The notes under the pieces were generated by a model. The model did not search any database. It worked only from the letters and a program-made list of their open reading frames with translations, and was not told the DNA's origin. A DNA stretch of 45,950 bases from a virus, in IMG/VR virus record IMGVR_UViG_3300033149_007212, positions 1-45,950 of that record; one strand, given 5' to 3'. Position numbers and translations under genes: made by a program. Positions within the stretch are counted from its first letter, which is position 1; every line of letters begins with the position of its first letter. Shown piece by piece: positions 3,973 to 45,329 of this stretch.

Positions 3973-4522
3973 ACAGCAGCTGGAGCGGCTCCGCGCCTGG
4001 TGCCACAAATACTCGGTTTTCGGGGACGTTGCCGAAATCGGTGTGTTCCAGGGCGGCTCGGCCCACGTCCTCGCCGAGGCCCGGCAGCCGGGGCGGTGGC
4101 TCTACCTCGTCGACAACGCCGCTATGCCCGGTACGAACTCGAGTATGTGGCCGGAGGCCTCGGTCGAGAACCGCTGCGTCCACGTCCTCGGCACCAGCAA
4201 GGACCTGGCCGCGGCGATCCGCACCGATAACGAGGGGTTCGAGCCGGATAGCGAGCACTGCGCCCGGCTCGGGTTCGTCCACATCGACGGCAATCACACC
4301 TATCCTGCCGTTTTGGCAGATCTCGAGGCTGTCACGCCCCTCGTGACAGTCGGTGGCGCGATCGCCTTTCACGACTGGGGCGAGCGGGGATCGGACTGTT
4401 GCGGTCCGGCGGCCGTCGACGTCGCCGTCACGGACTTCTTGCGGGACCATCCCGAATGGGAGCTGGTCTTCGCCGAGGACCACCAGGGCCTGATCGTTAA
4501 GCGAGAAGAGGGCACGGCATGA
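3953..4522 (+). CDS. class I SAM-dependent methyltransferase
   Basis: This 189-residue protein fits the Methyltransf_24/TylF-like group of Rossmann-fold methyltransferases. Motif I is VAEIGVFQGGSA (residues 26-37). The second strand ends at D54 (YLVDNA). VHIDGNHTY (109-117) is the typical post-strand-4 segment, followed by AFHDWG (138-143). The substrate cannot be told; small molecules or glycans are common in this group, which is of interest beside the three glycosyltransferase genes of this genome. The start follows GAGGAGGAGAACG, and the stop overlaps the next start by 4 bp. Confidence 0.8.
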   Translation: MQTLQTEQQLERLRAWCHKYSVFGDVAEIGVFQGGSAHVLAEARQPGRWLYLVDNAAMPGTNSSMWPEASVENRCVHVLGTSKDLAAAIRTDNEGFEPDSEHCARLGFVHIDGNHTYPAVLADLEAVTPLVTVGGAIAFHDWGERGSDCCGPAAVDVAVTDFLRDHPEWELVFAEDHQGLIVKREEGTA

Positions 4523-4992
4523 ACTGCGGCGCGACGTTCTCCGATGAGAGCTATTCGGAAAGGCTGCGGCAAAAAAAGATGAGGATTCGACAGCTGCGGC
4601 GGCAGCACCGGATCAAGCAGTTGCAGAGTATCTGGGTGCACAGTTGTGGGCACGAACTCGACGATGAGGCCGTGCTCACTCTCGTCGGGCGCGCGACGAT
4701 GGCCGCTCTGAATTGTATCTCTTTTCGGGATCTGATAGAAGCCGCTATCGGTTACGATTACGTACAGGACACGTGCTGGACCGGTAGCGGTGCCGCCCTC
4801 GTCCGCCTCTTGACGACAAAGGGCATCTATTTTGTCTTCTTCGATCTCCAGAGCGATGACGACTGGTCGCCTGAAAATGGCCAAATCGTTTGTGCCTTTT
4901 GGAAGCAGCACCAGCCAAGGCAGTTGCCGAAGGGGTATGGGCGGCTGCGTCCCATATTCAATAAATTACTGGAATGGCTCAGGGGTAATTGA
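4519..4992 (+). CDS. hypothetical protein, 157 aa
   Basis: Not recognised. A basic helical N-terminus (residues 13-37, many Arg/Lys/Gln) precedes a mixed alpha/beta domain with a hydrophobic strand near residues 103-110 (IYFVFFDL) and three scattered cysteines. It overlaps the methyltransferase stop (ATGA) and the start of the LamG protein, so it is translationally coupled within the late transcript. Confidence 0.75.
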   Translation: MNCGATFSDESYSERLRQKKMRIRQLRRQHRIKQLQSIWVHSCGHELDDEAVLTLVGRATMAALNCISFRDLIEAAIGYDYVQDTCWTGSGAALVRLLTTKGIYFVFFDLQSDDDWSPENGQIVCAFWKQHQPRQLPKGYGRLRPIFNKLLEWLRGN

Positions 4993-5891
4993 TGGTCGAC
5001 TCGGCACCGTTTTACACCAATTGGGCGATTCGATTCAGCGCCGATCACCAGGCCCTCTACGCACCAGATGATGACGTTTTCGATACCGATTCATTGACTC
5101 TCGAGTTTTGGATCCACTTTGGTGACGTTGCCGATCAAGGTTATATTTGTCACAAGGGCGAAACGAGTAACGATCTCGATTTCTACGTCTATTTCGATAA
5201 GAGTGCCGTCACGTGGTTCTGGTTTCTCGTTTATGATACCTCGGGCGGCGCATGGAGTATTGGTCTCAGACAGACTGATTGGGACGCCAACTCCGCCACC
5301 GGTTGGCACCATTTCGCTTGCGTTTTCGAATATTCGACCTCGGGCCAGATGCGGGTGCTGATCGATGGCAGCTTGGTAAAGAGTGTTAACCTTGGCGATA
5401 CGACCACGAAAGCACGACGACACAATGCAAATAGTCTTTTCTGGGGCGATCCGTCTGTCAACCACAACGGTGACTGGTGCCTTGACGAGTTGCGGATGTG
5501 GTCGGTCGCGCGCACGGATCAGCAGATTGCCGACAACTACAATAAGATACTCGATACAAGCGAAGCAGGACTAATCGGTTATTGGCGGCTCGAAGAGGGT
5601 AGCGGTGATGTTTGCGTCAATTCAAAAAATGGTAATCCAAATCTTTATCTAAATTATTACAATCCCGAGTGGGTCCCCGTGTCCGGGCTCAGCGAAGAGG
5701 AAGAGGCCGAACGCGCCCCGACTCGGCGTCGACGCGCCTCCGGTCTGGTCTGCTCCGGTACTGGGGATCAGGTACCATACGATCTCAGGAAGCTGTTGAT
5801 AAAGCAGGCACGGCGGCAGCAGGCTAAGCCGTTGATCACACCGTATCATCGTCTGAGCGGGCTCCATCCGCCGTCGTTGCCGAGGAGGTGA
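4992..5891 (+). CDS. LamG/concanavalin A-like domain protein
   Basis: This protein of about 299 residues has one LamG_3-type domain over roughly residues 10-200. Typical landmarks are LTLEFWIHF at the front, GWHHFACVFE in the middle, and CLDELRMWSVARTDQQI at the end, then GLIGYWRLEEGSGD. Such domains bind carbohydrates and occur in phage fibres and capsid decorations, so a surface or host-recognition role is likely. The C-terminal 70 residues are basic and probably flexible. The ATG at 4992 overlaps the previous TGA; a TTG at 4989 is possible. Confidence 0.75.
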   Translation: MVDSAPFYTNWAIRFSADHQALYAPDDDVFDTDSLTLEFWIHFGDVADQGYICHKGETSNDLDFYVYFDKSAVTWFWFLVYDTSGGAWSIGLRQTDWDANSATGWHHFACVFEYSTSGQMRVLIDGSLVKSVNLGDTTTKARRHNANSLFWGDPSVNHNGDWCLDELRMWSVARTDQQIADNYNKILDTSEAGLIGYWRLEEGSGDVCVNSKNGNPNLYLNYYNPEWVPVSGLSEEEEAERAPTRRRRASGLVCSGTGDQVPYDLRKLLIKQARRQQAKPLITPYHRLSGLHPPSLPRR

Positions 5892-5893
5892 CC

Positions 5894-6064
5894 ATGCCTT
5901 GGAAAGTCGTAAAACGTGGCAGTCAGTATGTTGTCGTCAATGCCGAGACGGGAAAGGTGAAGGGAAAGCACCCGACGAAGAGCGCGGCGCAGCGGCAGGT
6001 CCGTGCCCTCTACGCCAACGTGCCCGAATCGCGGCGGCCCGTGCGGCGACGGAGGAAGAAGTAG
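5894..6064 (+). CDS. small basic phage protein, 56 aa
   Basis: The frame encodes MPWKVVKRG at the start, then VVVNAETGKVKG, HPTKSAAQRQVRALYAN, and a run of Arg/Lys at the end. This pattern (a tryptophan near the start, an ETGK turn, then TKxxAxxQxxALY) is common among tiny phage structural-region proteins of unknown function. GAGGAGGTGACC precedes the ATG at 5894. The TAG at 6062 overlaps the next GTG start by 1 nt. Confidence 0.75.
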   Translation: MPWKVVKRGSQYVVVNAETGKVKGKHPTKSAAQRQVRALYANVPESRRPVRRRRKK

Positions 6065-6339
6065 TGGCGGCCTGGCAAAACGATTCGGCCTGGTTTCGAC
6101 CCCCACACCCGCGTATTGCCTATCTCGACCTCACTTTCTGCCCGTCGCCGCAGCAGGTCGAAGCGGCGGCCGAGGCGCTCGGGATCGATCCGGGCCGCGT
6201 CGTCACGATCGGGCCATGTGTTGTCCTTTTCGACAAGTCGGACCGGGCCGATTGGGAGCTTACTTTGCGGGACGAAGTGATGCAGTTTATGAACATATTT
6301 GAAGAGATAGCCGAACATGAGTTGGGACGTTCACAATAA
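6064..6339 (+). CDS. hypothetical protein, 91 aa
   Basis: Not recognised. A compact alpha/beta protein with RIAYLDLTFCPS, a helix (EAAAEALGI) and RVVTIGPCVVLFDKS strands, ending in an acidic helix. I chose the GTG at 6064 because GGAGGAAGAAGTA lies upstream and the previous stop overlaps it. It is coupled to the neighbours on both sides (22-bp overlap with the next gene). Confidence 0.65.
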   Translation: MAAWQNDSAWFRPPHPRIAYLDLTFCPSPQQVEAAAEALGIDPGRVVTIGPCVVLFDKSDRADWELTLRDEVMQFMNIFEEIAEHELGRSQ

Positions 6340-6808
6340 ATATAGGGATCTGATCGAGCGAATAATAAAAGTTGCTGGGGGTGATTCACCGGTATCTCAG
6401 CCACTCCCAGTGTACTGGACGAAACAAATTAAATACAACCTCACACAGCATCAAATAATGGTGGGAATTACAATCGATCCTGAATTCTGGCCGAATGAGA
6501 TCATAACGGCGGCCAGTTTGGCTCAAACGGATCGTGAGAATTGCTTTGAAGTTTATATTCACAATCTATGGCAGCAATATTATGGTTCGGATCCTACGAT
6601 GGCCTATTGTGGTGTGTTTGATGCCTGGACGGCTCCTTTGTCTACTTGGCCACCAATTGCGATGCTTGATCTTACGGCGGCATCATATGTAGTTCCATCA
6701 GGCTGGACCGGATATCGATGTGGTTGGGATGTAATTTGGGGCGAGGGTAAACGAATAAATGGTTGGTCATTGCCAGGTGTGGTGCTCGCATTAGCGGAGA
6801 ATAGCTAA
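6317..6808 (+). CDS. hypothetical protein, 163 aa (virion surface region)
   Basis: Not recognised. The protein is rich in Trp and Tyr (for example FDAWTAPLSTWPP and WTGYRCGWDVIWG), as seen in beta-rich phage surface proteins. It starts inside the previous gene. Base composition turns AT-richer from about 6320 to 7330, unlike the GC-rich genes on either side. Together with the LamG gene and the next gene it may form the host-recognition or decoration set; that is inference from position and composition. Confidence 0.65.
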   Translation: MSWDVHNKYRDLIERIIKVAGGDSPVSQPLPVYWTKQIKYNLTQHQIMVGITIDPEFWPNEIITAASLAQTDRENCFEVYIHNLWQQYYGSDPTMAYCGVFDAWTAPLSTWPPIAMLDLTAASYVVPSGWTGYRCGWDVIWGEGKRINGWSLPGVVLALAENS

Positions 6809-8278: not shown

Positions 8279-9785
8279 ACGCCAATTGCTGATTCAGCAG
8301 GCCTTTTTATTGGCGGAGCTGGAACGACGTCAAAAAGAGGCCCCTATCCTCCACTTCAAACCGCACCGGCTCCAGCAGCGATTTTTTAACAGCACTGCAC
8401 CGATTGTCATGCTAAGCGGCGGGAACCGGCTTGGGAAAACGCACGCTTTGGTCGCCCTCTCCATTGCCCTTGCCTGGGGTTATCGGTTATGGGAGACGGG
8501 GCAGGCCAGCAGCGTCGACGGCAATTTCAAGCCACGTGAGGAAATGCCCGAATCGGCGTGGATCCTTCGAACCGATGGGTTACCGATTCAGGTGCCGAAT
8601 CGAATCATCTACTTGACCGGACTCACCCTCGAACGCGGGATCGGCGAAATCTTCTGGGAGAAGTTCCGGCAGTTGGTCCCCAAAGACGTGCTGGCTAAAT
8701 GCGACATCAAAACCGGAACTCTCGGGATCCCGCGCAAAGTGGTGTGGCCCAATGGATCGGAGCTCATTCTTGGCAGCGCCCAGCAGCAGAAGGCGACGCG
8801 GGATATGAGCTTCGAGGGGTTCGCTGCCGACGCCGCCTTATTTGATGAGCCGCTGGATCGTAAGACATACATCGCCGTCAAGCGTGGTTTGATTGACAGA
8901 CAAGGCCGGCTCTGGTGGTCGCTCACCCCCGTTGGTCCTAACTGTCTCTGGATCGCCTCGGATCTGTTACAAGAGGAACGGGCCGACGTCGAGCTGATCC
9001 AAGGCGACCCGCTGGAAGAGAATCCGTTTATCGATCGGGCGGCTTTTGAGGCGTTTCTCGACGATGCCGCTATGACAGATGAGGAGCGGGAGGCGCGGCG
9101 ATATGGTCGGTTCTCGATGATGAGCCGAAATATTGTCACCACATTCGGCGACCACGCTATTATCGAGCCGACAGAAATACCGCTACATATCCCGCGCGTC
9201 ATGGTCAGTGACCCCCATCATGCGCGCCCGACCGTTTCAATCTGGGCTGCGGTTTATGACGATGGTGAGCGGCTGGTCATTTACCGTGAGGATCCGGATT
9301 ATGATATGACGAAGGGGCGCAAATTTATTCCATTTTCTAATTGGGCCGCCCAGATTAAGGCGCTGGAAGGACGAGAGCCGGTGTTGTGGCGATTGGTTGA
9401 TCCCCAGTTTGGTCCGGCGAAACCCAGCGTACTCGGGCAACGTGAACAGTCATTTGTGGAGCGGGCTGCCGAATACGGACTGGTATATTGTACCGAAGTC
9501 GATAATACTATTGATGCCGGAATAGATCGGTTACGGGAAGCGTTTCGGATAAGTGACGTAACCGGTCGGCCTCGAGTACAGATTTTTAGAAGTTGCCGAA
9601 ACACCATTAGGGCTCTGCAATTGTGGTCGTATGAAGAGAGCGCGTCCGGAGTCCTAAAGGTGTCGGAAAAATATAAAGATCGGGTGGATGTCGTACGCTA
9701 TCTCCTTTCGGCACGTATCCCGTTTTATGTTGGTGCAGTAGGTGGATACAACTATTTGGAGGATAATAATGCTGAAAAACATTGA
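8247..9785 (+). CDS. terminase large subunit
   Basis: This 512-residue ATP-driven DNA packaging motor has Walker A GGNRLGKT (residues 58-65), Walker B AALFDE (196-201), a C-motif region around WSLTPVG, and a C-terminal RNase H-like nuclease domain beginning near VMVSDPHHARP (D322). The length is normal for the family. It starts within the small subunit gene (32-bp overlap) and is followed by a lipoprotein-like gene, then a glycosyltransferase and the portal. Confidence 0.93.
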   Translation: MERKKKPSPNKRQLLIQQAFLLAELERRQKEAPILHFKPHRLQQRFFNSTAPIVMLSGGNRLGKTHALVALSIALAWGYRLWETGQASSVDGNFKPREEMPESAWILRTDGLPIQVPNRIIYLTGLTLERGIGEIFWEKFRQLVPKDVLAKCDIKTGTLGIPRKVVWPNGSELILGSAQQQKATRDMSFEGFAADAALFDEPLDRKTYIAVKRGLIDRQGRLWWSLTPVGPNCLWIASDLLQEERADVELIQGDPLEENPFIDRAAFEAFLDDAAMTDEEREARRYGRFSMMSRNIVTTFGDHAIIEPTEIPLHIPRVMVSDPHHARPTVSIWAAVYDDGERLVIYREDPDYDMTKGRKFIPFSNWAAQIKALEGREPVLWRLVDPQFGPAKPSVLGQREQSFVERAAEYGLVYCTEVDNTIDAGIDRLREAFRISDVTGRPRVQIFRSCRNTIRALQLWSYEESASGVLKVSEKYKDRVDVVRYLLSARIPFYVGAVGGYNYLEDNNAEKH

Positions 9786-10134
9786 AACGTTCCTTTCTAA
9801 AGTGTGGCCGTTTCTTTTCGTCTGTCTTTTTCTCTTGGCCGCCTCATGTCGGTATTCGGAAGTCGTAACCGGCCCGGATGGGCGTCCGGCAATAGTGGTA
9901 AAAGGAGAAGATAAGACTGGCCTTCAACCGGACGAGGTGCTGGGAGTACCGGCTGAGGATGTGGTTGGTGCGGCCAAGGACGCCGTCGAAACCGTGAATC
10001 CGGTTGAGGTGGTCGAAAAGGGACAGAAGGGGGATTGGTTTGGCGTAGTCGCCGGCGTTCTCACCTTCATGGCCGTGCTTGTTGGCGGAATAGGTGTTCG
10101 ACGCAAGATCAGGAAGAAGAAGGGAGCAGTGTAA
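9769..10134 (+). CDS. putative lipoprotein with C-terminal membrane segment, 121 aa
   Basis: The N-terminus has a signal sequence with a lipobox-like end (LLAASC, Cys near residue 25). The middle is acidic and soluble. A second hydrophobic segment (VVAGVLTFMAVLVGGIGV) is followed by a basic RRKIRKKK tail. The start follows TTTGGAGGATAATA. It overlaps the terminase end and the start of another small membrane protein gene. A lysis role (outer-membrane spanin-like) or a virion membrane role is possible, but neither is shown. Confidence 0.65.
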   Translation: MLKNIETFLSKVWPFLFVCLFLLAASCRYSEVVTGPDGRPAIVVKGEDKTGLQPDEVLGVPAEDVVGAAKDAVETVNPVEVVEKGQKGDWFGVVAGVLTFMAVLVGGIGVRRKIRKKKGAV

Positions 10135-10319
10135 TGCGTGTATTGAAGGGATTGGTTGTTGGTCTCGTTGTCCTTCTTGTCCTCTATGCCGTGGCCGTGG
10201 TCGCGCCGCCCTTTTCGATCGGTGTCGGCGGCGGCATTATGACCGGCCCGAATGCGGTGCTCGGCGGCCAGGTCGTTATCCAGAAAAACGTATTGCCGGA
10301 CAAAAAGGAGCCGCTGTAG
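10134..10319 (+). CDS. small single-span membrane protein, 61 aa
   Basis: One N-terminal membrane segment (LVVGLVVLLVLYAVAVVAPPF, residues 6-26) is followed by a short Gly/Val-rich tail ending in charged residues. The ATG overlaps the TAA of the lipoprotein-like gene, and its stop overlaps the GTG of the glycosyltransferase. The pair with 9769-10134 is coupled and could act together at the membrane. No family is recognised. Confidence 0.65.
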   Translation: MRVLKGLVVGLVVLLVLYAVAVVAPPFSIGVGGGIMTGPNAVLGGQVVIQKNVLPDKKEPL

Positions 10320-15799: not shown

Positions 15800-18280
15800 A
15801 TGAGGAAACGGCAACCGAAAGTACCGATTAGCCTGTGCCTAATTGGTCGGAATTGTGAGAAGGAAATTCAGCGTTTTCATCGCCAAGTCGTAAAACCGCT
15901 GCTTTTAAATGATAAAGACGAGGTAATATTTGTCGATACGGCCTCAACAGATAAAACAGTAGCAGAGGCTAAAAAACGGGGTTGGCATGTCATTGACGGT
16001 AAACGATTTGTTGAGCCACGTTTGCTCGCTCTTGCTAAACAGATAGCGCCCAAAGAGCTGGAACGTTGGATTGATCATCCACATATAAAGGGCGGAATCC
16101 TGAGATCGTTTGCTGAAGCACGAGAGCGATCATTTGCAGCGGCCCGTAATCGGGTCGTAATGTGGCTCGATTTGGACGATAAGCTGGTTGAGCCGGAAAA
16201 TTTACGGCTTTTTATCGATCACTGCTTTGGAGATCCGAAACGACACGGCGCTATATTTTTGCCTTACGATTATGCTTTCGATCAGTTCGGTAATTGCATC
16301 CTCACTCTTTGGCGTGAACGAATAGTCAGCAAAGAGGATTACGAATGGCGGGGTGCTTGTCATGAGGTGTTGTGTCCGAAGAAGGGCCGTGAAAAGTATA
16401 TAAATTTTATGGCCCGTGATCCTAACGCCCCGTTTAGAGTTCAGCACTTGAAACCGCCAGCTTCACATTTTAGTGATCTCCGTAATTATGTGATTATGTA
16501 TTACGATTGGTATATCCGCGACAATCAAGATCCGCGTACTCTTTTCTATCTCGGAAACGCTTGTCGCGGATTAGAGCGCTGGCTCGAAGCTATTAGATAT
16601 TATGAACAATTTGTCAAGCTGAGTGGCAATTTTGAAGATATCTTTATCGCTTATCTTAGCTGGGGCCAGGCATTGATGAAGCTGGGGCGTTTTTGGGAGG
16701 CTATTGATGTTGCCGATAAGGCGCAGAAAATAAAGCCCACCGACCCGCGACCGCTCTATTTCAAGGCTGAGTGCTGGTATCGTATGCGTAACTGGAAGGC
16801 GGCAATTGAATGTATACGACAGGGTGAAGGACGACCGATACCCGATACTCTTCACGCTGTCGATCCGACCGGCACACAGATGATGCCACCGATGATTGCC
16901 GCCCTTGCTGCCCGGGAAATGGGCGATGTCGAATTGGCTATGCATTACGCCACAAAAGCCCGGCAAGCAGCACCAAACGACCAGGTTTTACAACAAGCAT
17001 ATCATGATTTTATACAGTGGGCACGGGCAGAAAAGATAGTGCAAGCACAGGCTGTGGCAGTAAATACAGCTAAAGATAAAATCGACGTCGCTAAGCTGCT
17101 CGTCATCAGTCCACACGCCGCTGATAAAGGATTTGGTGTACCTGAGACTGCAGTACCTGGTGGTTACTCCGGTAAAAAGACACTGGCTATTTACTGTCCG
17201 CATACGTCAACCCGCTGGGGACCGTTGACGGACGGGCGCGGACTGGGAGCCAGCGAAAAGATGGTGTGGCTGATAGCGAAGCGGCTGGCCAAGCGGGGTT
17301 TAGCCGTAACGGTTTATTGTCGACTTGCTGACCCGCCCGGTAAATATGATGGTGTCGAATGGCGTCATTATGCCACCTATAATCCGAAACTTTATCGAGA
17401 CTATATTCTTCTTTGGCGCGCCCCGCAGCTATTGGCTCATACTCATTTTGCGTGCGGTAAGCTATATGTCTGGATGCACGATGTCGGTTTCGATACGGTG
17501 TGGACACCAGACGTATTAAAGCAGGTCAATAAAGTACTGTTTCTGAGCAAGTTTCATAGGAGCAAACACCCAAGCGTGCCGGAATCGAAAGTGTACTACA
17601 CTCGAAACGGCATCGATCTGGATCTTCATTTGTGGAATGGTGAAAAAGAAGAGAAAAAAATCGTTTATATGTCATGCCCGACCCGCGGTTGGTTGACGAC
17701 TTGTGAAATCTTCAATGAATCTAAACTTGCCGAAGAGGGCTATGAGCTCCATCTCTTTTATGGATTTACTGAAGGATTTGACGACGCCGCCAACCAGCAA
17801 ATTGCCGGCTACATACCAGATCTCGACCGAGAATACGTATTGCGAGATTATCAGGCCGAATGCCTGCGCGTAGCCGACGAGAGCCCGGGAATCGTACGGC
17901 GCGGCATGGTCAATTGGCACGAAATCGCCCAGGAATTGAAAACAGCTAAAATTTGGCTGTATCCGACGCGGTTCGATGAAATCAGTTGTGTTGCAGCAAT
18001 GGAAGCCCAAGCGGCGGGTTGCCTGATTATGGCTACCGATAGTGGTGCTTTGGCTGAAACCCTTGCTGGATATAAGCTGTGGGTTAATCCCGGCAAGATA
18101 GATGTAGAAAGGTGGGCCAAGGTTTTGCGACGACAAATAATGTGGGATCGCCGCAAGATGAGCGAGGCGGCCCGCAGGTTCGATATAGAAACTTTGGCCG
18201 ATGAGTGGATGCGCGATTTGTTTGTGGAGGTCAAACATGGCGAGTGTAAACGAATTAAGGCAAAAAGTTCAGGCTCTTGA
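15800..18280 (+). CDS. GT-A / TPR / GT-B fusion glycosyltransferase
   Basis: This 826-residue protein joins three parts. Residues 1-235 are a GT2-like domain with FVDTASTDKT (44-53) and MWLDLDD (D124, D126, D127). Residues about 240-420 are TPR repeats (LFYLGNACRGLERWLEAIRY and following). Residues about 430-826 are a GT-B fold domain with a GLGASEKMV loop and a C-terminal E-x7-E type motif in DEISCVAAMEAQAAG. Such enzymes transfer sugars to proteins or lipids, and TPRs can hold the acceptor. It lies between capsid and tail genes, so virion glycosylation is the natural guess. The start follows AGGGAGGACAGCGATA. Composition is AT-richer than the capsid gene. Confidence 0.8.
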   Translation: MRKRQPKVPISLCLIGRNCEKEIQRFHRQVVKPLLLNDKDEVIFVDTASTDKTVAEAKKRGWHVIDGKRFVEPRLLALAKQIAPKELERWIDHPHIKGGILRSFAEARERSFAAARNRVVMWLDLDDKLVEPENLRLFIDHCFGDPKRHGAIFLPYDYAFDQFGNCILTLWRERIVSKEDYEWRGACHEVLCPKKGREKYINFMARDPNAPFRVQHLKPPASHFSDLRNYVIMYYDWYIRDNQDPRTLFYLGNACRGLERWLEAIRYYEQFVKLSGNFEDIFIAYLSWGQALMKLGRFWEAIDVADKAQKIKPTDPRPLYFKAECWYRMRNWKAAIECIRQGEGRPIPDTLHAVDPTGTQMMPPMIAALAAREMGDVELAMHYATKARQAAPNDQVLQQAYHDFIQWARAEKIVQAQAVAVNTAKDKIDVAKLLVISPHAADKGFGVPETAVPGGYSGKKTLAIYCPHTSTRWGPLTDGRGLGASEKMVWLIAKRLAKRGLAVTVYCRLADPPGKYDGVEWRHYATYNPKLYRDYILLWRAPQLLAHTHFACGKLYVWMHDVGFDTVWTPDVLKQVNKVLFLSKFHRSKHPSVPESKVYYTRNGIDLDLHLWNGEKEEKKIVYMSCPTRGWLTTCEIFNESKLAEEGYELHLFYGFTEGFDDAANQQIAGYIPDLDREYVLRDYQAECLRVADESPGIVRRGMVNWHEIAQELKTAKIWLYPTRFDEISCVAAMEAQAAGCLIMATDSGALAETLAGYKLWVNPGKIDVERWAKVLRRQIMWDRRKMSEAARRFDIETLADEWMRDLFVEVKHGECKRIKAKSSGS

Positions 18281-32750: not shown

Positions 32751-33260
32751 CTATCCAAATATCGAATCAATCAATCCATACCTTTTTGCTTCTGCTGGTT
32801 CTAAATAAAGCATTGATTTTCCTTTCAATTTTTTTCTCCACCAGGCCCGCTGTCTACCTGTTAATTCAGCAAGTAAATCATAAAAATATTTTCGTTCTTT
32901 TTCTAAAGCAAGTCGTTCTACTGCTTGTGCCGCTGGATCTTCTGTTACATCTGTTAAAAAAGGTTCATGTGCCGCTATAATCGAATACCGATGTGCGAAC
33001 CGTAATCCTTTTGACCCCATTGCAAGCAAGATAACGTATCCGCTCTCTACGTCGCCGATGGCCCGGGTCTCGAGCCGGTCGTCCGCCCGATAGTGCCGCA
33101 GCATCCCGTGCAGCGCCCGATACACCGGTGCGTCGGTCCCGGGCCCGCTCAGCCACAAGACCAGATGCACGCCCTCCGGGTTGACAGCGGCATCGAGCAC
33201 GTCACGGGTCAGCCGCGGCATCGAGAGCTCACCGAATAAAAAGATGTGTCTAATCTGCAT
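32751..33260 (-). CDS. ClpP-like serine protease
   Basis: The 169-residue protein aligns with the ClpP/crotonase fold: an early IFLFGELS strand, HLVLWLSGPG, then AIGDVESGYVILLAMG with S73, GLRFAHRYSIIAAHEP with H98, and AEAKRYGLIDSIFG at the end. The S73-H98 spacing of 25 equals that of ClpP nucleophile and histidine. The expected triad Asp falls near MLYLE and seems to be missing. The gene is GC-rich for residues 1-80 and AT-rich after that. Phage relatives may act as capsid proteases or interact with host ClpX; here it lies in the leftward operon, not the head cluster. The start follows GGAGGGAGCAAT. Confidence 0.75.
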   Translation of the reverse strand: MQIRHIFLFGELSMPRLTRDVLDAAVNPEGVHLVLWLSGPGTDAPVYRALHGMLRHYRADDRLETRAIGDVESGYVILLAMGSKGLRFAHRYSIIAAHEPFLTDVTEDPAAQAVERLALEKERKYFYDLLAELTGRQRAWWRKKLKGKSMLYLEPAEAKRYGLIDSIFG

Positions 33261-38778: not shown

Positions 38779-38856
38779 TGTGTCCTCCTCTATTATTATA
38801 TCCGAGCTCAGCCCGGAAAATGCAACACCTATTTTTCTTTCTGAGCGAAATTTAAT
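38779..38856 (-). promoter_or_regulatory. leftward promoter for the helicase-sigma-nuclease group
   Basis: On the minus strand TTGCAT (plus 38820-38825) and TATAAT (plus 38795-38800) are separated by 19 nt. The -10 lies about 16 bp before the helicase ATG, so the leader is extremely short and starts close to the ribosome binding site. The element includes the last codons and TAG of the polymerase gene. A second copy of the whole block lies at 2858-2935 on the plus strand. Confidence 0.7.
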
Positions 38857-40826
38857 CCAAGCCGCTCCATTTCCACCACCCGCTCCATGGGGGTATTCTC
38901 GTCGTACACATCCGGTAACAATCCGCACGCCGTATGAAAAAGGGTGCGTTTTATCTGCTTCACTTTAATGCAAAAATCGTTTTTCGGCACCGCTACGAGA
39001 TAGGAATCATGAATGTAGGCCAGCACCTCGTGATCTTGTTCGAACAGCCACGTCAGCGCCCGCTTGGTGAGCCGGGCGGCCAACCCCTGAAACGGGGCGT
39101 TTTTGCTGATGGTGTAGTCCACGGGGAACCGGGACAGCCAACATTCGTCCTTCGACCCTATAATCACCCGCCGCTGTGCCGCCCAGCGCAGCAGCCGCGT
39201 TGTAGGCCGCCGCTTCACCAGGTCATCGAGCACCTCCGCCGGCACCCCCGACTGTGCGCGGATTGCCGACTCCACCCGCGCCCACGCCTGGGCGACGAGC
39301 TGGGGGTGGACAGGTTTACGGAAACGGAGACGTGTGAAAATCTGGAGGACGTCGATATTGTGGGTGAGCTGCGGCACCACCTCGTCTTGGAGATATTGCC
39401 GCATTTCCGGAAACGCCTGGAGCCACGCCTCCCGCAACCGCTTGGCGTCGTTTAGACTGATCACCAGGCCGTGATTGAGGCAGTGCTTGACGAAGGTACG
39501 CGGCCCCATCCCTGCCGGGAAACCGAAATTGGCACATTTCATAAGGAATCGTTCCTCTTTCGTAATCTGCTCACCCGGCACCCCGTAGAAAATGGAGCCG
39601 ACGTAACGGTGTACGTCCTGCCCGGCCCGAATCATCTCCCGAAGTTTGCCGGGTACGAGCTGGGCGAGGCAGGCCAGCTCCAGCTGCTTGTAATCGAACT
39701 CCACCAGCTCGGTACCCGGCGGGGCGACGAAGCAGGAGCGGATCCACACCTTGTCCCCGTGCTTAGGGATGTTCTGGAGATTGGGGCGGGACGAGGCGGT
39801 CCGGCCCGTGTGGAGGAGCGGCCAATACTCGGGGTGTACCCGCCCGGTTTCGGGGTCCCGATACTCCCGCCACCGCTGAACGTGGGAGCGGAGCAGCTTC
39901 TCGGCCCCCTTGTATTGGAGGTACGCCTCGATCTCGGGCACCTTGCCGGCCACCTGCTGGAGCCATTGAAGGGTATCCTTACCGATAGCGATCCGGCCCG
40001 TGGCGGTCCGCTCCAGCTGCAGGCCGTGCGCCTCTGCGAACCGCTCCAGGTCGGCCCGGAGCCGCTTCTCATCGATACGGGCCTTGTAGCGGCCCCCTCG
40101 CGGCCCCTGACGCGCCGGAAGGAACCAGCCCACCTTCTGTAGCCTCTTTGCCGCCGAGGCCATCTCGCGCTTCAGACGGGCTTCTATGCGGTCCAGCTCA
40201 TCCAAGTCTACCGGCAGCCCGTTGAGGGAGAGGTACTGGAGGGCGACAGCGGCCCGGGTGTGCTCGTGTAATGTTTTTGATTTGAAGAGGGTGCCGAGAT
40301 CGCGGCGGTTGATTTCCTGGAGCCGTGTATAGGCACTGATCAGCAACTCGACATCCCGGCGGAGGTACGCCACCTGCTCGGGAGTGAGTGGCCGGTCTCG
40401 GCGATAGCTAAGCTGGATCCGTCGCGCCTCATCGGCCCCGAACTTCGACGCCCCGGCCACCGCCTCGAGGCTGCGGAGGATCGGCTCCCCCTGACAGTCA
40501 GTGCTGGCGAGGCGGAGGAGGCCGTCATAGAGCATCGTACAGACGTAGAACCGCTGAGCAAACCCGGAATAGAGGGTGCTCCGCGCTGTGAATCCGAAGT
40601 GGTTATTGAGGACAACGAGGTCAAAGGCCAGATTGTGGCCGACGATGATGGTACCGTTCGGATTCAGGAAAAGCTTTCTGAACTCCTCAAATTGCGGATC
40701 GTTGACGTGCGCCACCTGGATAGGCTGGAGCTTGGTGTCCTTCAGCGCCCAACCGACCGCCACCAATCGCGGGATATGTCCCGGGCGGATCGGTTCGGTT
40801 TCGGTGTCTAAGAAGAGTGTGGCCAT
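38829..40826 (-). CDS. family A DNA polymerase with 3'-5' exonuclease
   Basis: This 665-residue polymerase has exonuclease motifs FLDTETE (D7, E9), GHNLAFD (D69) and YLRRD (D158), and no 5'-3' exonuclease. Polymerase motifs are TGRTASSRPNLQNIP (340-354), motif A FDYKQLELA (D378, E383), motif B RFLMKCANFGFPAGMG (K430, F434), and motif C YIHDSYL (D607). Two usual residues are changed: the tyrosine of motif B (E. coli Y766) is Ala438, and the glutamate of motif C (HDE) is Ser608. F434 is kept. It replicates the phage genome together with the helicase. ATG follows GAGGAGGCAATC. Confidence 0.92.
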   Translation of the reverse strand: MATLFLDTETEPIRPGHIPRLVAVGWALKDTKLQPIQVAHVNDPQFEEFRKLFLNPNGTIIVGHNLAFDLVVLNNHFGFTARSTLYSGFAQRFYVCTMLYDGLLRLASTDCQGEPILRSLEAVAGASKFGADEARRIQLSYRRDRPLTPEQVAYLRRDVELLISAYTRLQEINRRDLGTLFKSKTLHEHTRAAVALQYLSLNGLPVDLDELDRIEARLKREMASAAKRLQKVGWFLPARQGPRGGRYKARIDEKRLRADLERFAEAHGLQLERTATGRIAIGKDTLQWLQQVAGKVPEIEAYLQYKGAEKLLRSHVQRWREYRDPETGRVHPEYWPLLHTGRTASSRPNLQNIPKHGDKVWIRSCFVAPPGTELVEFDYKQLELACLAQLVPGKLREMIRAGQDVHRYVGSIFYGVPGEQITKEERFLMKCANFGFPAGMGPRTFVKHCLNHGLVISLNDAKRLREAWLQAFPEMRQYLQDEVVPQLTHNIDVLQIFTRLRFRKPVHPQLVAQAWARVESAIRAQSGVPAEVLDDLVKRRPTTRLLRWAAQRRVIIGSKDECWLSRFPVDYTISKNAPFQGLAARLTKRALTWLFEQDHEVLAYIHDSYLVAVPKNDFCIKVKQIKRTLFHTACGLLPDVYDENTPMERVVEMERLGLNFAQKEK

Positions 40827-40873
40827 GATTGCCTCCTCAAACTAAAAAGGTTTCTACTCCAGGGCGGTTCAAT

Positions 40874-40950
40874 TCAACAGATGTTCCGGTCGAGCCGGGC
40901 CGGTATATACCGGTACCGTACCGGTATAACTCGACCGGAACATCTGTTGA
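40874..40950. repeat. 20-bp perfect inverted repeat upstream of the polymerase gene
   Basis: TCAACAGATGTTCCGGTCGA at 40874-40893 and its exact reverse complement at 40931-40950 flank a 37-nt GC-rich centre. The centre contains the 14-bp palindrome CCGGTATATACCGG and CCGGTACCGTACCGG. The set can form a long hairpin in RNA or DNA. It lies in the 219-bp gap between the AAA+ gene and the polymerase gene. A diverged copy lies at 2453-2630. It is not followed directly by a U-tract, so it is not a simple terminator. It could be an origin, an attenuator or a regulator site. Confidence 0.9.
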
Positions 40951-41045
40951 TATGATACCGTCCTGGGACCGGTCCCTATCCCGGTGCCGGATACCGGTGT
41001 AGAGACCGGTATTAGAGATCTGCTTCGTACATGGCATTTTTACTA

Positions 41046-42305
41046 TTACCGTGTACATTTTACCTGGTCCTGGTCCTGATTCTGGTTCTGGCCCTGATCA
41101 CGGTCTTTTAACCGGTATTCGAGTCCGCGCACGATCCATTTTCGTACCCTCTCGTAATAGTAATAGTTTTTGCCGAACAAGGATTTAGCGGGAGCGAGAT
41201 ACCGTTCCGTAGTGGCATCGATATCGTTATTAAGAACCCGATCGGTAATGTGATCGAGCAAGGGTTCGAAGTACTTGAACTGCATCGTGGAATGGCGCTG
41301 TGCATAATGGAAGAGGGCGAGGGTGGCCACCTGCATTTCGACGGGTGTGGCCGCGGTGGCCTGGCGGGCCACGAACCCCACCAGTTCGGTTGCCAGGAAG
41401 TTGGTGGGCATGCTGTCGAGGAGCCGGGAGAGCCGCTTAATGGCCGCTTGTGTGATCTTGTCGGGTCGGTTACCGAACGATTCGGCCTCTTTTTGGACAC
41501 AGCTGAACCAGGAAGCGGCGAGGTTTGCGCTATTGAGATCGAAAAGGACGGCGTTGGCCTTCTCGCCAAGCACTCCCACCAGCACCTCCTCCAGTAAGCA
41601 GGTGTCCACCTTGCCGTGGAGCCGGGTGAAGAGCCGGGCGGCCCAGGCCAGGCTCCGGGGCGAGATCGTGGGGGCGACATTCCAGCGGTTGAGGGTAGCG
41701 GCGACGGCGGAAGGGTTACTGAACTCGTCCTTACCTGCTGTGTCCCGGAAAGCGGGGCTGAGCTGCCACGCTCGGAGCCGGAGACCGACGCCGGCGGCGC
41801 TTTCGGGGTCGGTTTCGGAGAGCCACTGAAACCAGCCGTCCCAATCGGGGGTGATGATGAGGTGGACGAAGCGGTTGACGAGGGCGCTGTCGAAATCGGT
41901 GACGTGGTAGACGCCGTTCGGGGGGTTGGCCGCGGCGACGATCCAGGTGTCGGGCGGGAGCGGGTGGCCGTGCAGGCGCCGCTCGGTGAGGAGCGGGAGG
42001 ATCGCCGAGAGGGTGTAGCGCGGGGCCCGGTTGATCTCGTCGAGGAAGATGATGACCCGCTCCCCCTCCTTCGGCCACCAGTCGGGGAGGGCCCAGGTGG
42101 TGCGGTCCCCGTCCCGGGTCGGGAGGCCGATCAAGTCGCCGGGCTCCTGGGTGGCGAGATAGAGTGGGCGCAGTTCCCGCCCCACCTCGTCGGCCAGGGT
42201 GTGGACCAGGGCGGTTTTGCCGATGCCGCGCTCGCCCCAGAGGAGGGGGACGAGGCCGGCCTCGCATACCTCGTGGACAATCTGTTTTGCGTCGTTCAAT
42301 TTCAT
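41046..42305 (-). CDS. MoxR-like AAA+ ATPase
   Basis: The 419-residue protein has Walker A GERGIGKT (24-31), a GDLIGLPTR segment, Walker B IIFLDE (85-90), sensor 1 N127 in AAANPPN, and the arginine finger R145 (ALVNRFVHL). This is the MoxR/AAA_5 layout. Such ATPases work as chaperones that insert metals or remodel complexes with a VWA partner, encoded here directly upstream. The C-terminus ends in a (D/N)Q dipeptide run (DQGQNQNQDQDQ) coded by a 6-bp repeat. The gene is GC-rich, unlike its AT-rich partner. Confidence 0.88.
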   Translation of the reverse strand: MKLNDAKQIVHEVCEAGLVPLLWGERGIGKTALVHTLADEVGRELRPLYLATQEPGDLIGLPTRDGDRTTWALPDWWPKEGERVIIFLDEINRAPRYTLSAILPLLTERRLHGHPLPPDTWIVAAANPPNGVYHVTDFDSALVNRFVHLIITPDWDGWFQWLSETDPESAAGVGLRLRAWQLSPAFRDTAGKDEFSNPSAVAATLNRWNVAPTISPRSLAWAARLFTRLHGKVDTCLLEEVLVGVLGEKANAVLFDLNSANLAASWFSCVQKEAESFGNRPDKITQAAIKRLSRLLDSMPTNFLATELVGFVARQATAATPVEMQVATLALFHYAQRHSTMQFKYFEPLLDHITDRVLNNDIDATTERYLAPAKSLFGKNYYYYERVRKWIVRGLEYRLKDRDQGQNQNQDQDQVKCTR

Positions 42306-42323
42306 CGTGCTACCTCCTATCTT

Positions 42324-43823
42324 TTATAGTTTAACGGGTTTATGAGGTAAGTACAGTTCGTATTTCATATTACGGATATCGAAAACGAGAACGGGGCCGA
42401 GTTTGGTCGCTTTTTGGTGAAGAGCCTTGTCATAAAGTCGATTAGCAAGCGTGCAGTTATAAGAGCCTCGGGTTAGTATAACCCAAAGTATTTGTCGGTA
42501 ATGTGGAAAAAGACGTTTAACCGTAGACGGTTTAGGATACCAACTACATTCACCATCGGTAATATATACAATAAATTCGGCATTTCGGGCCTGTTGGAAT
42601 GTCGGTTTGGGTTTATTAAAACCTTCGAAAACTTTTGTATAGCTGGTGCCACCGCTACCGTATGGCGGGCAAAAAGTTTTGATATGTTCTTTTTGTGTGA
42701 TCGGAGTAACGGTTCGTAGATATTCACCACCGTGGGCGGCGAGGAGTTTCCAGCCACGGTCAAACCAAAGTTTTAGAATTTGTTTGGCAACGTTTATATC
42801 TGCTGACTCCATGCTGCCTGATGAATCGACGATTACGAGCAATGACGGATGACTGCGATAGTGGAGGGAAACGGGAAGGTCGGGCCGGCGCCGGTCCGGA
42901 ATTAATCGGACAACGGGCGCTTCACGTTCACCGTATTCGAGGTGGCGATTGATGGCGGCGAAAAGAGGCTGGAGTTGGGAAAGGTACAGGTGTGAATCTG
43001 ATACGTTGCGGTTAAGATAAGAATCAAAAAGTTTGAGCAATAATGGCGGCATCATCGGGCTGAGTGGGGTGAAGGTTTCGAGACTAAACTTGATTTCTGA
43101 ATGGCCACAACCCTTTCCGTGAGTTGAAGTTACGTTTTTGTTGCCGAATAAATCTTCTTCGGTATTAGTATTTGATCCGTGACCGACTGCTTGCCAATGT
43201 TCGTTACCGATTTTGATGTCTTGTTTGGATTGTATCGTTTTTATAGCTCGCTCGAAAGGTGGATCAGAGGGTGGCTTTTTCTTAATTTTTTCACAAAGTA
43301 AATGATAAAGCTCATAAGCAGTGGTGTATTCGTATTCATAACTTTTAAGGTCAAGGCTGTTCAGGATATCATAAGTGACGAGACCGAGACGTTCGGGTGT
43401 CGTTAAAATGCGAGGAAATCCAGGGGCTGTATAGAGAGTCGTTAAAAAGTCGTTGACAATGATGTCAACAGCAATGTTCCACAACAAATCTTGTTGACGA
43501 AGAGATAAGTCGGTTCGAAGCTTGGGCCGATGTGTGTTGTGCCGCCAATAAATGTGTAGCGCCTCGTGAGCAAGGAAGGTGAGGCGGCCTGGAGTGGAGA
43601 ACTCAAAATATTTAGGTGTTATGATTAAATTGTACATATACCCGTTTTTGGTTTTTTTGTAAAGGACTGAAGCCGCCCACATTTTTTTCTCTTTTTCATC
43701 TTCCGGCTCAAAAAATGCTACAGGTAGATAACCCAGTACCGGAAAGTAATTGATTAAGTGCCTTATATCTTCTTGAACCGTTTTTTGTTGAGCTCTTGTG
43801 GGTTTCCATTTTTTCAGCTGCAT
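42324..43823 (-). CDS. DUF2201-type metallopeptidase/VWA protein
   Basis: The 499-residue protein joins an N-terminal zincin-like domain with HEALH (residues 86-90) to a C-terminal VWA-like domain with a complete MIDAS: DSSGS (D333-S337), GGTS (T393) and TDGE (D423). This is the DUF2201 architecture that accompanies MoxR ATPases in bacterial genomes. The pair probably forms a metal-dependent remodelling machine; targets are unknown. The gene ends 18 bp before the AAA+ start. Its composition is AT-rich compared with both neighbours. Confidence 0.88.
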   Translation of the reverse strand: MQLKKWKPTRAQQKTVQEDIRHLINYFPVLGYLPVAFFEPEDEKEKKMWAASVLYKKTKNGYMYNLIITPKYFEFSTPGRLTFLAHEALHIYWRHNTHRPKLRTDLSLRQQDLLWNIAVDIIVNDFLTTLYTAPGFPRILTTPERLGLVTYDILNSLDLKSYEYEYTTAYELYHLLCEKIKKKPPSDPPFERAIKTIQSKQDIKIGNEHWQAVGHGSNTNTEEDLFGNKNVTSTHGKGCGHSEIKFSLETFTPLSPMMPPLLLKLFDSYLNRNVSDSHLYLSQLQPLFAAINRHLEYGEREAPVVRLIPDRRRPDLPVSLHYRSHPSLLVIVDSSGSMESADINVAKQILKLWFDRGWKLLAAHGGEYLRTVTPITQKEHIKTFCPPYGSGGTSYTKVFEGFNKPKPTFQQARNAEFIVYITDGECSWYPKPSTVKRLFPHYRQILWVILTRGSYNCTLANRLYDKALHQKATKLGPVLVFDIRNMKYELYLPHKPVKL

Positions 43824-43824
43824 T

Positions 43825-44427
43825 TTAGTCTCTCCTTATTCGTTTATAAAACTCTGTTACCTTATCATACCACGTTTTATCTTTGCTGTCAAGTGTCTGG
43901 CCGATTACCCAGCCTTTATCAGTTGAGTTGACGAAGACGACGAACCCCTTCCCACCATCTTTTTTCGGCCAGGTGAGGAGGACGAAACGGGCGTCGTCGG
44001 GGAGGGCGAAGCAGAGGTGCCGCTCTTTTTTGAATGTGACGTTCCAGTGATACAGCCACGATCCACGAAAACGGAACCCGCCGCGCCCTTTCATATCGAG
44101 GCTGGTCACGACCCGGCCCCAGGCCCGCCAGTTGGGAGTCACGCCGACAGGGAGGCAAATGTGAACCTCCGTTCGGCAGCGGCGCCGGTTGGGGACGAGC
44201 AGGGCTGAGCAGAATGAGGCTGGGAGGCCGGTCATTTCCTGCTCTTCTTCCGGTTGTGGCTGCGGCTCCGGCTGCGGCGCCTTGACCACCACCTGGGTAT
44301 AGATGGCCAGGGGGGTGGCCGGTGGCCGCCAATCGGGGTCGGCCCGGAGGGCGGCCGCCGCGATCCGCTGCCGGGCGGTGGGGGTCAGGTCGGCCCAGTG
44401 AATTTCGTGCTTTTGGGTGCTCATCAT
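43825..44427 (-). CDS. hypothetical protein, 200 aa
   Basis: Not recognised. The N-terminal 40 residues are helical, followed by a Pro/Gln/Glu-rich linker (PQPEPQPQPEEEQE). A beta-rich domain follows with SWLYHWNVTFKKERHLCFAL, ARFVLLTWPKKDGGKG, and a helical end (YDKVTEFYKRIRRD). It is coupled to the 85-residue gene upstream (4-bp overlap) and lies 1 bp before the VWA gene. It may be an accessory or substrate of the MoxR/VWA pair. Confidence 0.75.
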   Translation of the reverse strand: MMSTQKHEIHWADLTPTARQRIAAAALRADPDWRPPATPLAIYTQVVVKAPQPEPQPQPEEEQEMTGLPASFCSALLVPNRRRCRTEVHICLPVGVTPNWRAWGRVVTSLDMKGRGGFRFRGSWLYHWNVTFKKERHLCFALPDDARFVLLTWPKKDGGKGFVVFVNSTDKGWVIGQTLDSKDKTWYDKVTEFYKRIRRD

Positions 44428-44681
44428 ACCACCTCCCCGTAGTCGTCGTGTTGGATTGAGTGCCGGATCTCGGCGGCGGCCAGCAGCAGTTCTTCCCGGG
44501 CCGACACCGGGCCGCGAACGAACACCTCGAGCAGCACCTGACCGAACGCGGGATCGTAGACGATCCGGGGACCGGCGGTAATTCCGTGCTGGCCGTGGAC
44601 GCGCCAGGGAGCACGATAGAAGGCGTTGAGCCGGGCCGCCGGCGGGAGTGCTTCCCGGTAGACGACGAATTCAATTTGCAT
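44424..44681 (-). CDS. hypothetical protein, 85 aa
   Basis: From ATG 44681 (after GGGAGGTGTGTC) the protein reads MQIEFVVYREALPPAARLNA and then a strand-helix pattern with RIVYDPAFGQVLLEVFVRGP. It looks like a small globular alpha/beta domain. It overlaps the HELGH peptidase gene by 11 bp. No family recognised. Confidence 0.65.
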   Translation of the reverse strand: MQIEFVVYREALPPAARLNAFYRAPWRVHGQHGITAGPRIVYDPAFGQVLLEVFVRGPVSAREELLLAAAEIRHSIQHDDYGEVV

Positions 44682-45192
44682 GACACACCTCCCGATAAGC
44701 GGTTTGGAGCTGGGCCATAATCGGACCGTAGTGGCCGAGATAGGTAGTATGGAGCGGGTGGGTAAGGGGCCGGCCGGCGAGGCGCCATATGCAGAGGGCA
44801 AAGAACTCGGCGAAGAATTCGCTGGCGTCCCGGGCTAAGCGGTCTGTGTTATAGTTGGCTGTAGCTTGGGTTTCGGCGGCGACAACGTGCCCCAATTCGT
44901 GGAGCAACAGGAAGACACCGTACCATGTTCCATTCGCCCATTCCTGTACCCCGCGCCAGAAACGGCGACAGATCACCACCTCTTCTCCGTTTTTGCATGC
45001 GGCGGCGAAGTTGGGGGGAACGTTGTAGTCCCATTTCCGGCGGTAGGGACGGACCGTCACCTGGTCGGCTCGGGGCGTGAGGGGCCGGAGTAGGCGCCGG
45101 GACCAGAGGGTGAGGGTCCGGTAGTCGTGATTGTGGAGGCCGGTATACAGGCCGGCGAGAATGCGTTGGAGGGTGTATTGTTGTTGTCTCAT
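44671..45192 (-). CDS. putative zincin metallopeptidase (HELGH), 173 aa
   Basis: HELGH at residues 98-102 in FLLLHELGHVVAAE is followed by DASEFFAEFFA, whose E126 or E129 could be the third zinc ligand. The N-terminal 90 residues are basic and helical. It is about the size of small ImmA/IrrE-like or phage zincins, but lacks a recognisable HTH. It is the second HExxH protein in this cluster, after the DUF2201 protein. ATG 45192 follows TGGAGGTGGCC. Confidence 0.75.
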   Translation of the reverse strand: MRQQQYTLQRILAGLYTGLHNHDYRTLTLWSRRLLRPLTPRADQVTVRPYRRKWDYNVPPNFAAACKNGEEVVICRRFWRGVQEWANGTWYGVFLLLHELGHVVAAETQATANYNTDRLARDASEFFAEFFALCIWRLAGRPLTHPLHTTYLGHYGPIMAQLQTAYREVCHAN

Positions 45193-45209
45193 GGCCACCT
45201 CCATTTTCA

Positions 45210-45329
45210 TTAGCTAACGAGGTCCCGTTTCCAAGTCAGACGCCGGCGCCGCCGCCGGACCCGGTCGCGGGCGGCGGCGGCAACGGCAATGAGCCAAAGG
45301 ACGGTGCAGAGGGTCTCTATTGCGGTCAT
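45210..45329 (-). CDS. tiny membrane-basic peptide, 39 aa
   Basis: The frame starts MTAIETLCTVLWLIAVAAAA and continues with a strongly arginine-rich tail. It has one short membrane segment. GGAG lies about 10 nt before the ATG at 45329. The start is 2 bp from the stop of the previous gene, and the stop lies 17 bp before the HELGH gene. Translation is plausible but not certain. Confidence 0.45.
   Translation of the reverse strand: MTAIETLCTVLWLIAVAAAARDRVRRRRRRLTWKRDLVS

Follow-up and report, generated by a model that had tools for sequence, protein, structure and literature searches.

We analysed a viral DNA of 45,950 nucleotides (IMG/VR record IMGVR_UViG_3300033149_007212, positions 1 to 45,950; henceforth the window), in which an original prediction had singled out a MoxR-type AAA+ ATPase encoded next to a DUF2201 protein as the heart of a possible new system. 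The AAA+ gene (41046-42305, minus strand, 419 residues) and the DUF2201 gene (42324-43823, minus strand, 499 residues, with an N-terminal zincin and a C-terminal VWA domain) are separated by an 18-nt gap, and each is preceded by a ribosome-binding site, the strong taggaggt for the AAA+ gene and aaggag for the VWA gene. Pfam, PHROG and motif analyses bear out that the pair is real, intact and adjacent, and sequence comparison shows the two genes to be divergent orthologues of gp24 and gp25 of phage N4, which are core genes of the Schitoviridae. The predicted position just before a DNA polymerase gene was also correct, with a family A DNA polymerase (38829-40826, minus strand; Pfam and PHROG) encoded immediately downstream of the AAA+ gene. 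The listing of open reading frames (ORFs) places three further genes upstream on the same minus strand, encoding a 200-residue protein (43825-44427), an 85-residue protein (44424-44681, within a longer ORF with a TTG start, 44424-44801) and a 179-residue HELGH zincin (44671-45210, with an internal ATG at 45192).

The AAA+ protein and its VWA/zincin partner

Against Pfam, the AAA+ protein matched AAA_5 (E 1.9e-10) and AAA_3 (E 8.7e-8), and against PHROG it matched phrog_1297, the N4 gp24 family, at E 4.4e-44 and 152 bits, with the next family at 64 bits. The Walker A (GERGIGKT) and Walker B (IIFLDE) motifs that had been read from the sequence fall on conserved alignment columns, as does the sensor-1 residue N126, while the arginine finger, originally assigned to R145, is placed by the alignments at R144. 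An AlphaFold model computed from an alignment of viral relatives had middling confidence (70.6) with a confident AAA+ core, and a fold search returned NorQ and CbbQ as its closest solved folds. Compared by sequence, the AAA+ profile scored about equally against midasin AAA modules (43.6 bits, the best), CbbQ (38.3 bits) and NorQ (36.9 bits). The model predicts a strand pair (60-64/67-71) after helix 54-58 and before the Walker B strand (83-88), which would be the site of the helix-2 insert between Walker A and Walker B. We infer that the protein assembles into a ring, as a member of the helix-2-insert (MoxR/midasin) clade. Its closest relative (locus L020) matches it at 45% over 165 residues, and COOH-NH2 ligase-like and amidotransferase-like genes lie just upstream of the pair there (4270-6549).

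The partner passes the Pfam cut-off for DUF2201_N (E 7.4e-6), matches phrog_1314, the N4 gp25 family, at E 1.8e-16, and was found at E 3.9e-13 by a family profile built without the window sequence. It was expected to carry HEALH and an intact metal ion-dependent adhesion site (MIDAS), and indeed both sets of residues are invariant or nearly so in the alignments: H85, E86, H89, H94 and D119 on the zincin side, where the motif HEALHIYWRH spans residues 85-94, and D332, S334, S336, T392 and D422 in the MIDAS. Judging by conservation, the third zinc ligand would be either H94 or D119. The N-terminal region shows similarity to the minimal zincin MJ1213 (E 2.5e-4); a fold search with the partner model listed no match over the zincin half and was uninformative on the zincin fold. 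The VWA half falls short of the Pfam threshold (E 0.059); its assignment is supported by motif and by the partner's AlphaFold model, likewise computed from an alignment of viral relatives and of middling confidence (72.5), in which the VWA domain is confident and folds as such. The top match of this domain is the MIDAS domain of Rea1/midasin (Z 12.3, 182 residues, root-mean-square deviation 3.7), and other VWA domains score within 1 Z of it.

Proteins of the gp25 type carry the label 'HNH endonuclease' in PHROGs (phrog_1314) and in many GenBank/RefSeq phage records (for example L004 9053-10225, L011 7995-9218, L014 5676-6998 and L019 8026-9180). A Pfam scan of eight members found DUF2201_N and the DUF2201 VWA domain and no HNH domain, so that on domain content the label is a propagated misannotation, perhaps originating from the HNH gene located between gp24 and gp25 in G7C.

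A strict two-gene unit in diverse phages

The window pair is about 15-30% identical to the members with which it was aligned and is, by sequence, a very divergent copy of a module already known. Because single-sequence pattern searches of viral contigs found no close relatives of the AAA+ protein, the VWA protein, the 200-residue protein or the upstream zincin, profiles were needed to retrieve relatives. The AAA+ protein matched 730 phage records at E 1e-3, a search with G7C gp25 matched 654 at E 1e-5 with a closely similar host spread, and a profile scan of IMG/VR gave at least 597 encoded relatives. Schitoviridae with the pair include N4, LUZ7, G7C, EcP1, Piffle, DFL12phi1, RHph_N38, Zuri and others, and the pair is also present in Vequintavirinae, PA5oct, Bacillus phage G, Moorella phage MTATph1, Alteromonas AD45-P1 and metagenomic phages. 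The module is thus core to N4-like phages, and the viral records that contain it number well over a thousand.

The original prediction would have failed if the genes did not stay together or if close homologues had broken catalytic motifs, and the pair passed both of these checks. Among the IMG/VR loci retrieved with the AAA+ protein (L020-L099), 40 have at least 2.5 kb on both flanks, and the VWA partner is present in 38 of them (exceptions L021 and L026), usually within about 150 bp and on the same strand. It is likewise found in 17 of 18 phage-record loci, the exception being Vibrio phage Va1, where the AAA+ relative (L003) adjoins a 379-residue protein (9154-10293) that gives no match to the VWA profile, perhaps a different partner or a highly divergent one. 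The catalytic motifs proved equally stable in relatives, with HExxHx4H retained in 88 and DxSxS in all of 90 full-length partners. None of the eight bacterial MoxR outgroup loci (L113-L120, from a weak search) has a DUF2201 VWA partner, and these hold ordinary MoxR genes. Cellular DUF2201 is rare, being above cut-off in 3 of 200 genomes of the sampled phylum; an AAA+ gene adjoins the two strongest cellular DUF2201 genes and one from another genome. A search for whole-phage relatives by way of the DNA polymerase gave one distant locus (L128), with the pair absent from the fetched stretch, and an NCBIfam scan returned nothing relevant.

The upstream genes and the promoter of the pair

The pair had originally been grouped with the zincin, the 85-residue protein and the 200-residue protein into a single five-gene system. 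These same-strand genes are tightly spaced and overlapping, and the ORF proposed for the zincin stands at its position; its family assignment is less firm, the Pfam match to Peptidase_M78 (M78/ImmA-like) being sub-threshold (E 8.8e-4; 19.5 bits, where the cut-off is 22). The 85- and 200-residue proteins and a 105-residue protein matched no Pfam or PHROG family above threshold, and neither these three nor the zincin gave a match at E < 1 in the pair loci searched. Relatives of the 200-residue protein and the zincin were absent from the phage collection as well as from the viral contigs.

Moreover, a consensus sigma-70-type promoter separates the upstream genes from the pair. An exact match to TTGACA-N15-19-TATRAT occurs once in the window and in none of 100 shuffles; this element (TTGACA-N17-TATGAT, 43864-43892, minus strand) has 17-nt spacing, an extended -10 and 11 of 12 consensus positions, and its end lies some 40 bp upstream of the VWA start codon. 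Since so rare an exact promoter lies just before the VWA start and good ribosome-binding sites precede both genes, the pair is likely transcribed on its own, from a start at this predicted promoter. With no relatives of the upstream proteins in the pair loci, and none of the zincin or the 200-residue protein in phages or viral contigs, we rejected the five-gene operon as a single system, which we regard as very improbable. As far as can be told, the zincin, the 85-residue protein and the 200-residue protein are bystanders outside the conserved module.

Gene neighbourhood, timing and candidate roles

We clustered every gene lying up to 5 kb from the AAA+ gene in 110 loci, which form 41 dereplicated groups. 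The AAA+ family recurred in 37 groups and the VWA family in 31, the next best being a Dda-like helicase and a dCTP deaminase with 5 each, and no third family was recurrent beside the pair across these loci. Among 132 neighbours encoded on the same strand as dereplicated pairs, head and tail families were missing from the 25 commonest, although rarer structural neighbours do occur, as in RHph_N38; the named recurrent neighbours are the Dda-like helicase, dCTP deaminase, DNA polymerase, RNA polymerase, thymidylate synthase, DNA ligase and a phosphoesterase. The window pair itself precedes DNA polymerase A, with the gene for the major head protein some 27 kb away, and gp24 and gp25 of N4 are middle transcripts (PMC4193335). 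Gene position and timing weakly favour a client of the replication or transcription phase over one of late virion assembly.

These data bear on the idea that the pair is a virion assembly chaperone with a peptidase, remodelling and trimming structural proteins. Such a role was proposed for the jumbo-phage pair by Iyer and co-workers (PMC7824862) and is shown in part for p618/p892 of Acidianus two-tailed virus (ATV), of which p618 is a virion component that has been tied to the development of the tails (PMC4124505), and structural genes stand near the pair in the N4-like phage RPP1 (PMC4193335) and in RHph_N38. The recurrence of replication, nucleotide and transcription genes, and of no head or tail family, among the commonest named neighbours, middle transcription in N4 and the polymerase next door in the window speak against it, and we hold virion assembly to be a possible but rather unlikely explanation.

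The same neighbourhoods yielded no phage client, which, together with the location among early and middle genes, the patchy distribution across unrelated phages of many hosts and the large sequence divergence, would suit a pair that acts early in infection to take apart or cut a host complex (defence machinery, RNA polymerase or nucleoid proteins). Against such a counter-host role, near-universal retention as core genes in the Schitoviridae (PMC4193335) suggests a housekeeping function and not an accessory arms-race gene, and the PADLOC defence families gave no meaningful match, with one chance P-loop match. We judge this role, too, to be possible but doubtful.

Less likely still is a metal-insertion or maturase chaperone of the NorQD/CobST type, acting on a metalloenzyme and using its zincin domain to bind metal rather than to cleave. 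The AAA+ fold is closest to NorQ, and NorQD inserts iron (PMC13036017). No metalloenzyme recurs in most pair neighbourhoods, however, and retention of HExxHx4H, including the catalytic glutamate, in 88 of 90 proteins suggests catalysis, which leaves this explanation improbable.

A proposed remodelling mechanism

We consider it probable, while keeping the above alternatives in play, that the pair, a divergent module of the N4 gp24/gp25 type, works as a peptidase-bearing remodeller that is powered by ATP and acts on a protein complex of the replication/transcription phase. Our best reading by analogy is a middle-phase remodeller mechanically like NorQD or midasin. Cryo-electron microscopy of NorQD shows a finger of the VWA partner entering the pore of the ring and its C-terminus binding the ring; ATP-driven rotation stretches a linker and, as proposed, the client, which the MIDAS is thought to grip (PMC13036017). 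By analogy, the AAA+ protein of the window would assemble into a helix-2-insert ring on which the VWA protein docks, and the MIDAS metal site would grip an acidic residue on the client. ATP hydrolysis would then twist or pull the VWA protein and so remodel the protein complex, and the zincin domain of the same polypeptide might cleave the client or an exposed loop. Given the surrounding replication and transcription genes and the lack of a third family accompanying the pair, we expect the client to be a host protein complex or a phage replication or transcription complex, these being the most likely targets, rather than the product of an adjoining gene, with a host client as likely as a phage one.

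Several points weigh against this remodeller. Both AlphaFold models are of middling confidence, and with H94 and D119 as mere candidates for the third zinc ligand, the peptidase could be inactive or serve for binding only. In some members (RHph_N38; RPP1, PMC4193335) a second structural module adjoins the pair, which would fit a virion-assembly role; location among replication genes indicates timing at best.

A more specific version is that the pair is a widespread, phage-encoded split-midasin machine with its own protease, which would dismantle or edit a nucleoprotein complex at the switch to replication and middle transcription, a way of remodelling host or phage complexes that would be new to the record for tailed phages; the unrelated upstream zincin and 200-residue protein may then be lineage-specific helpers. 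We put this version forward tentatively, as an outside candidate.

What the survey establishes is a strict two-gene unit of gp24/gp25 orthologues with intact motifs and conserved catalytic residues, placed among replication and transcription genes, whose gp25-type partner is often mislabelled as an HNH endonuclease. It argues against simply assuming a virion-assembly role, and makes the question of the client directly testable in the laboratory phage N4.

Other features of the window

The AAA+ and DNA polymerase genes are 219 bp apart, and the gap holds a long inverted repeat (40869-40955) with 37-nt arms that are 81% complementary and several CCGGTA motifs, which may serve as a regulatory site or a terminator. 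Both ends of the contig (1-109 and 45816-45950), which have 105 identical bases in common, are made up of a 22-bp tandem repeat, GGACGGGCTGGGTCCGGGCCGA, that recurs about 1.8 kb in (1684-1992); either the contig represents a circular genome closed inside the repeat array, or its assembly may have halted at the array. A ClpP-like serine peptidase (32751-33260, minus strand; Pfam E 1.2e-8) is encoded on the early strand, away from the head genes, and in phages Va1 and MTATph1, too, a gene for ClpP or HslV lies no more than about 5 kb from the AAA+ gene. Among the head genes, an 826-residue protein (15800-18280, plus strand) has TPR repeats flanked by a glycosyltransferase on each side.

Comparison with known systems

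Like the window pair, NorQ/NorD and CbbQ/CbbO combine a MoxR AAA+ ring with a MIDAS-bearing VWA partner; neither NorD nor CbbO is known to have a zincin domain, unlike the partner in the window. Their respective clients are nitric oxide reductase and rubisco (PMC13036017, PMC4660213). Midasin/Rea1 resembles the window pair as the top fold match of the VWA domain (tied within 1 Z) and the top sequence match of the AAA+ profile. Unlike the pair, it is one giant eukaryotic protein, is not known to carry a peptidase and acts on pre-60S ribosomes.

The p618/p892 pair of ATV is a virus-encoded MoxR/VWA pair whose members were shown to interact (PMC4124505), but ATV is an archaeal virus and its pair has no peptidase domain (PMC7824862), unlike the window partner. 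The VMAP/iSTAND ternary conflict systems (PMC7159879) have a third component (VMAP, iSTAND or beta-propeller), none of which was found among the window neighbours, and no third family recurs in the relatives.

The system had been put forward as undescribed, but two published descriptions precede it. In 2021, Iyer and co-workers reported from group 2.2 jumbo phages a MoxR protein whose vWA partner carries a metallopeptidase at its N-terminus, and suggested that the two serve in virion assembly and that peptidolysis is involved (PMC7824862). By that description, the jumbo-phage pair (ASV44729/ASV44728) shares with the window a MoxR AAA+ protein and a metallopeptidase-vWA fusion; the window copy differs in lying in a small genome, beside replication genes. 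Earlier, a 2014 comparison of N4-like phages had listed gp24 ('unknown') and gp25 ('vWFA domain') among 14 core genes (PMC4193335), and our literature search on N4-like phages or Schitoviridae and MoxR found no functional study. The window copy is only about 20-27% identical to the N4 module and differs from it in its reversed gene order, with VWA first, as in Alteromonas AD45-P1, and in belonging to a phage of about 46 kb whose major head protein has its best matches in other podovirus-like phages. It has in common with N4 the same two families, the same motifs and adjacent genes, and, as in LUZ7 and EcP1, where the pair stands before the helicase and DNA polymerase, it has the DNA polymerase as its neighbour.

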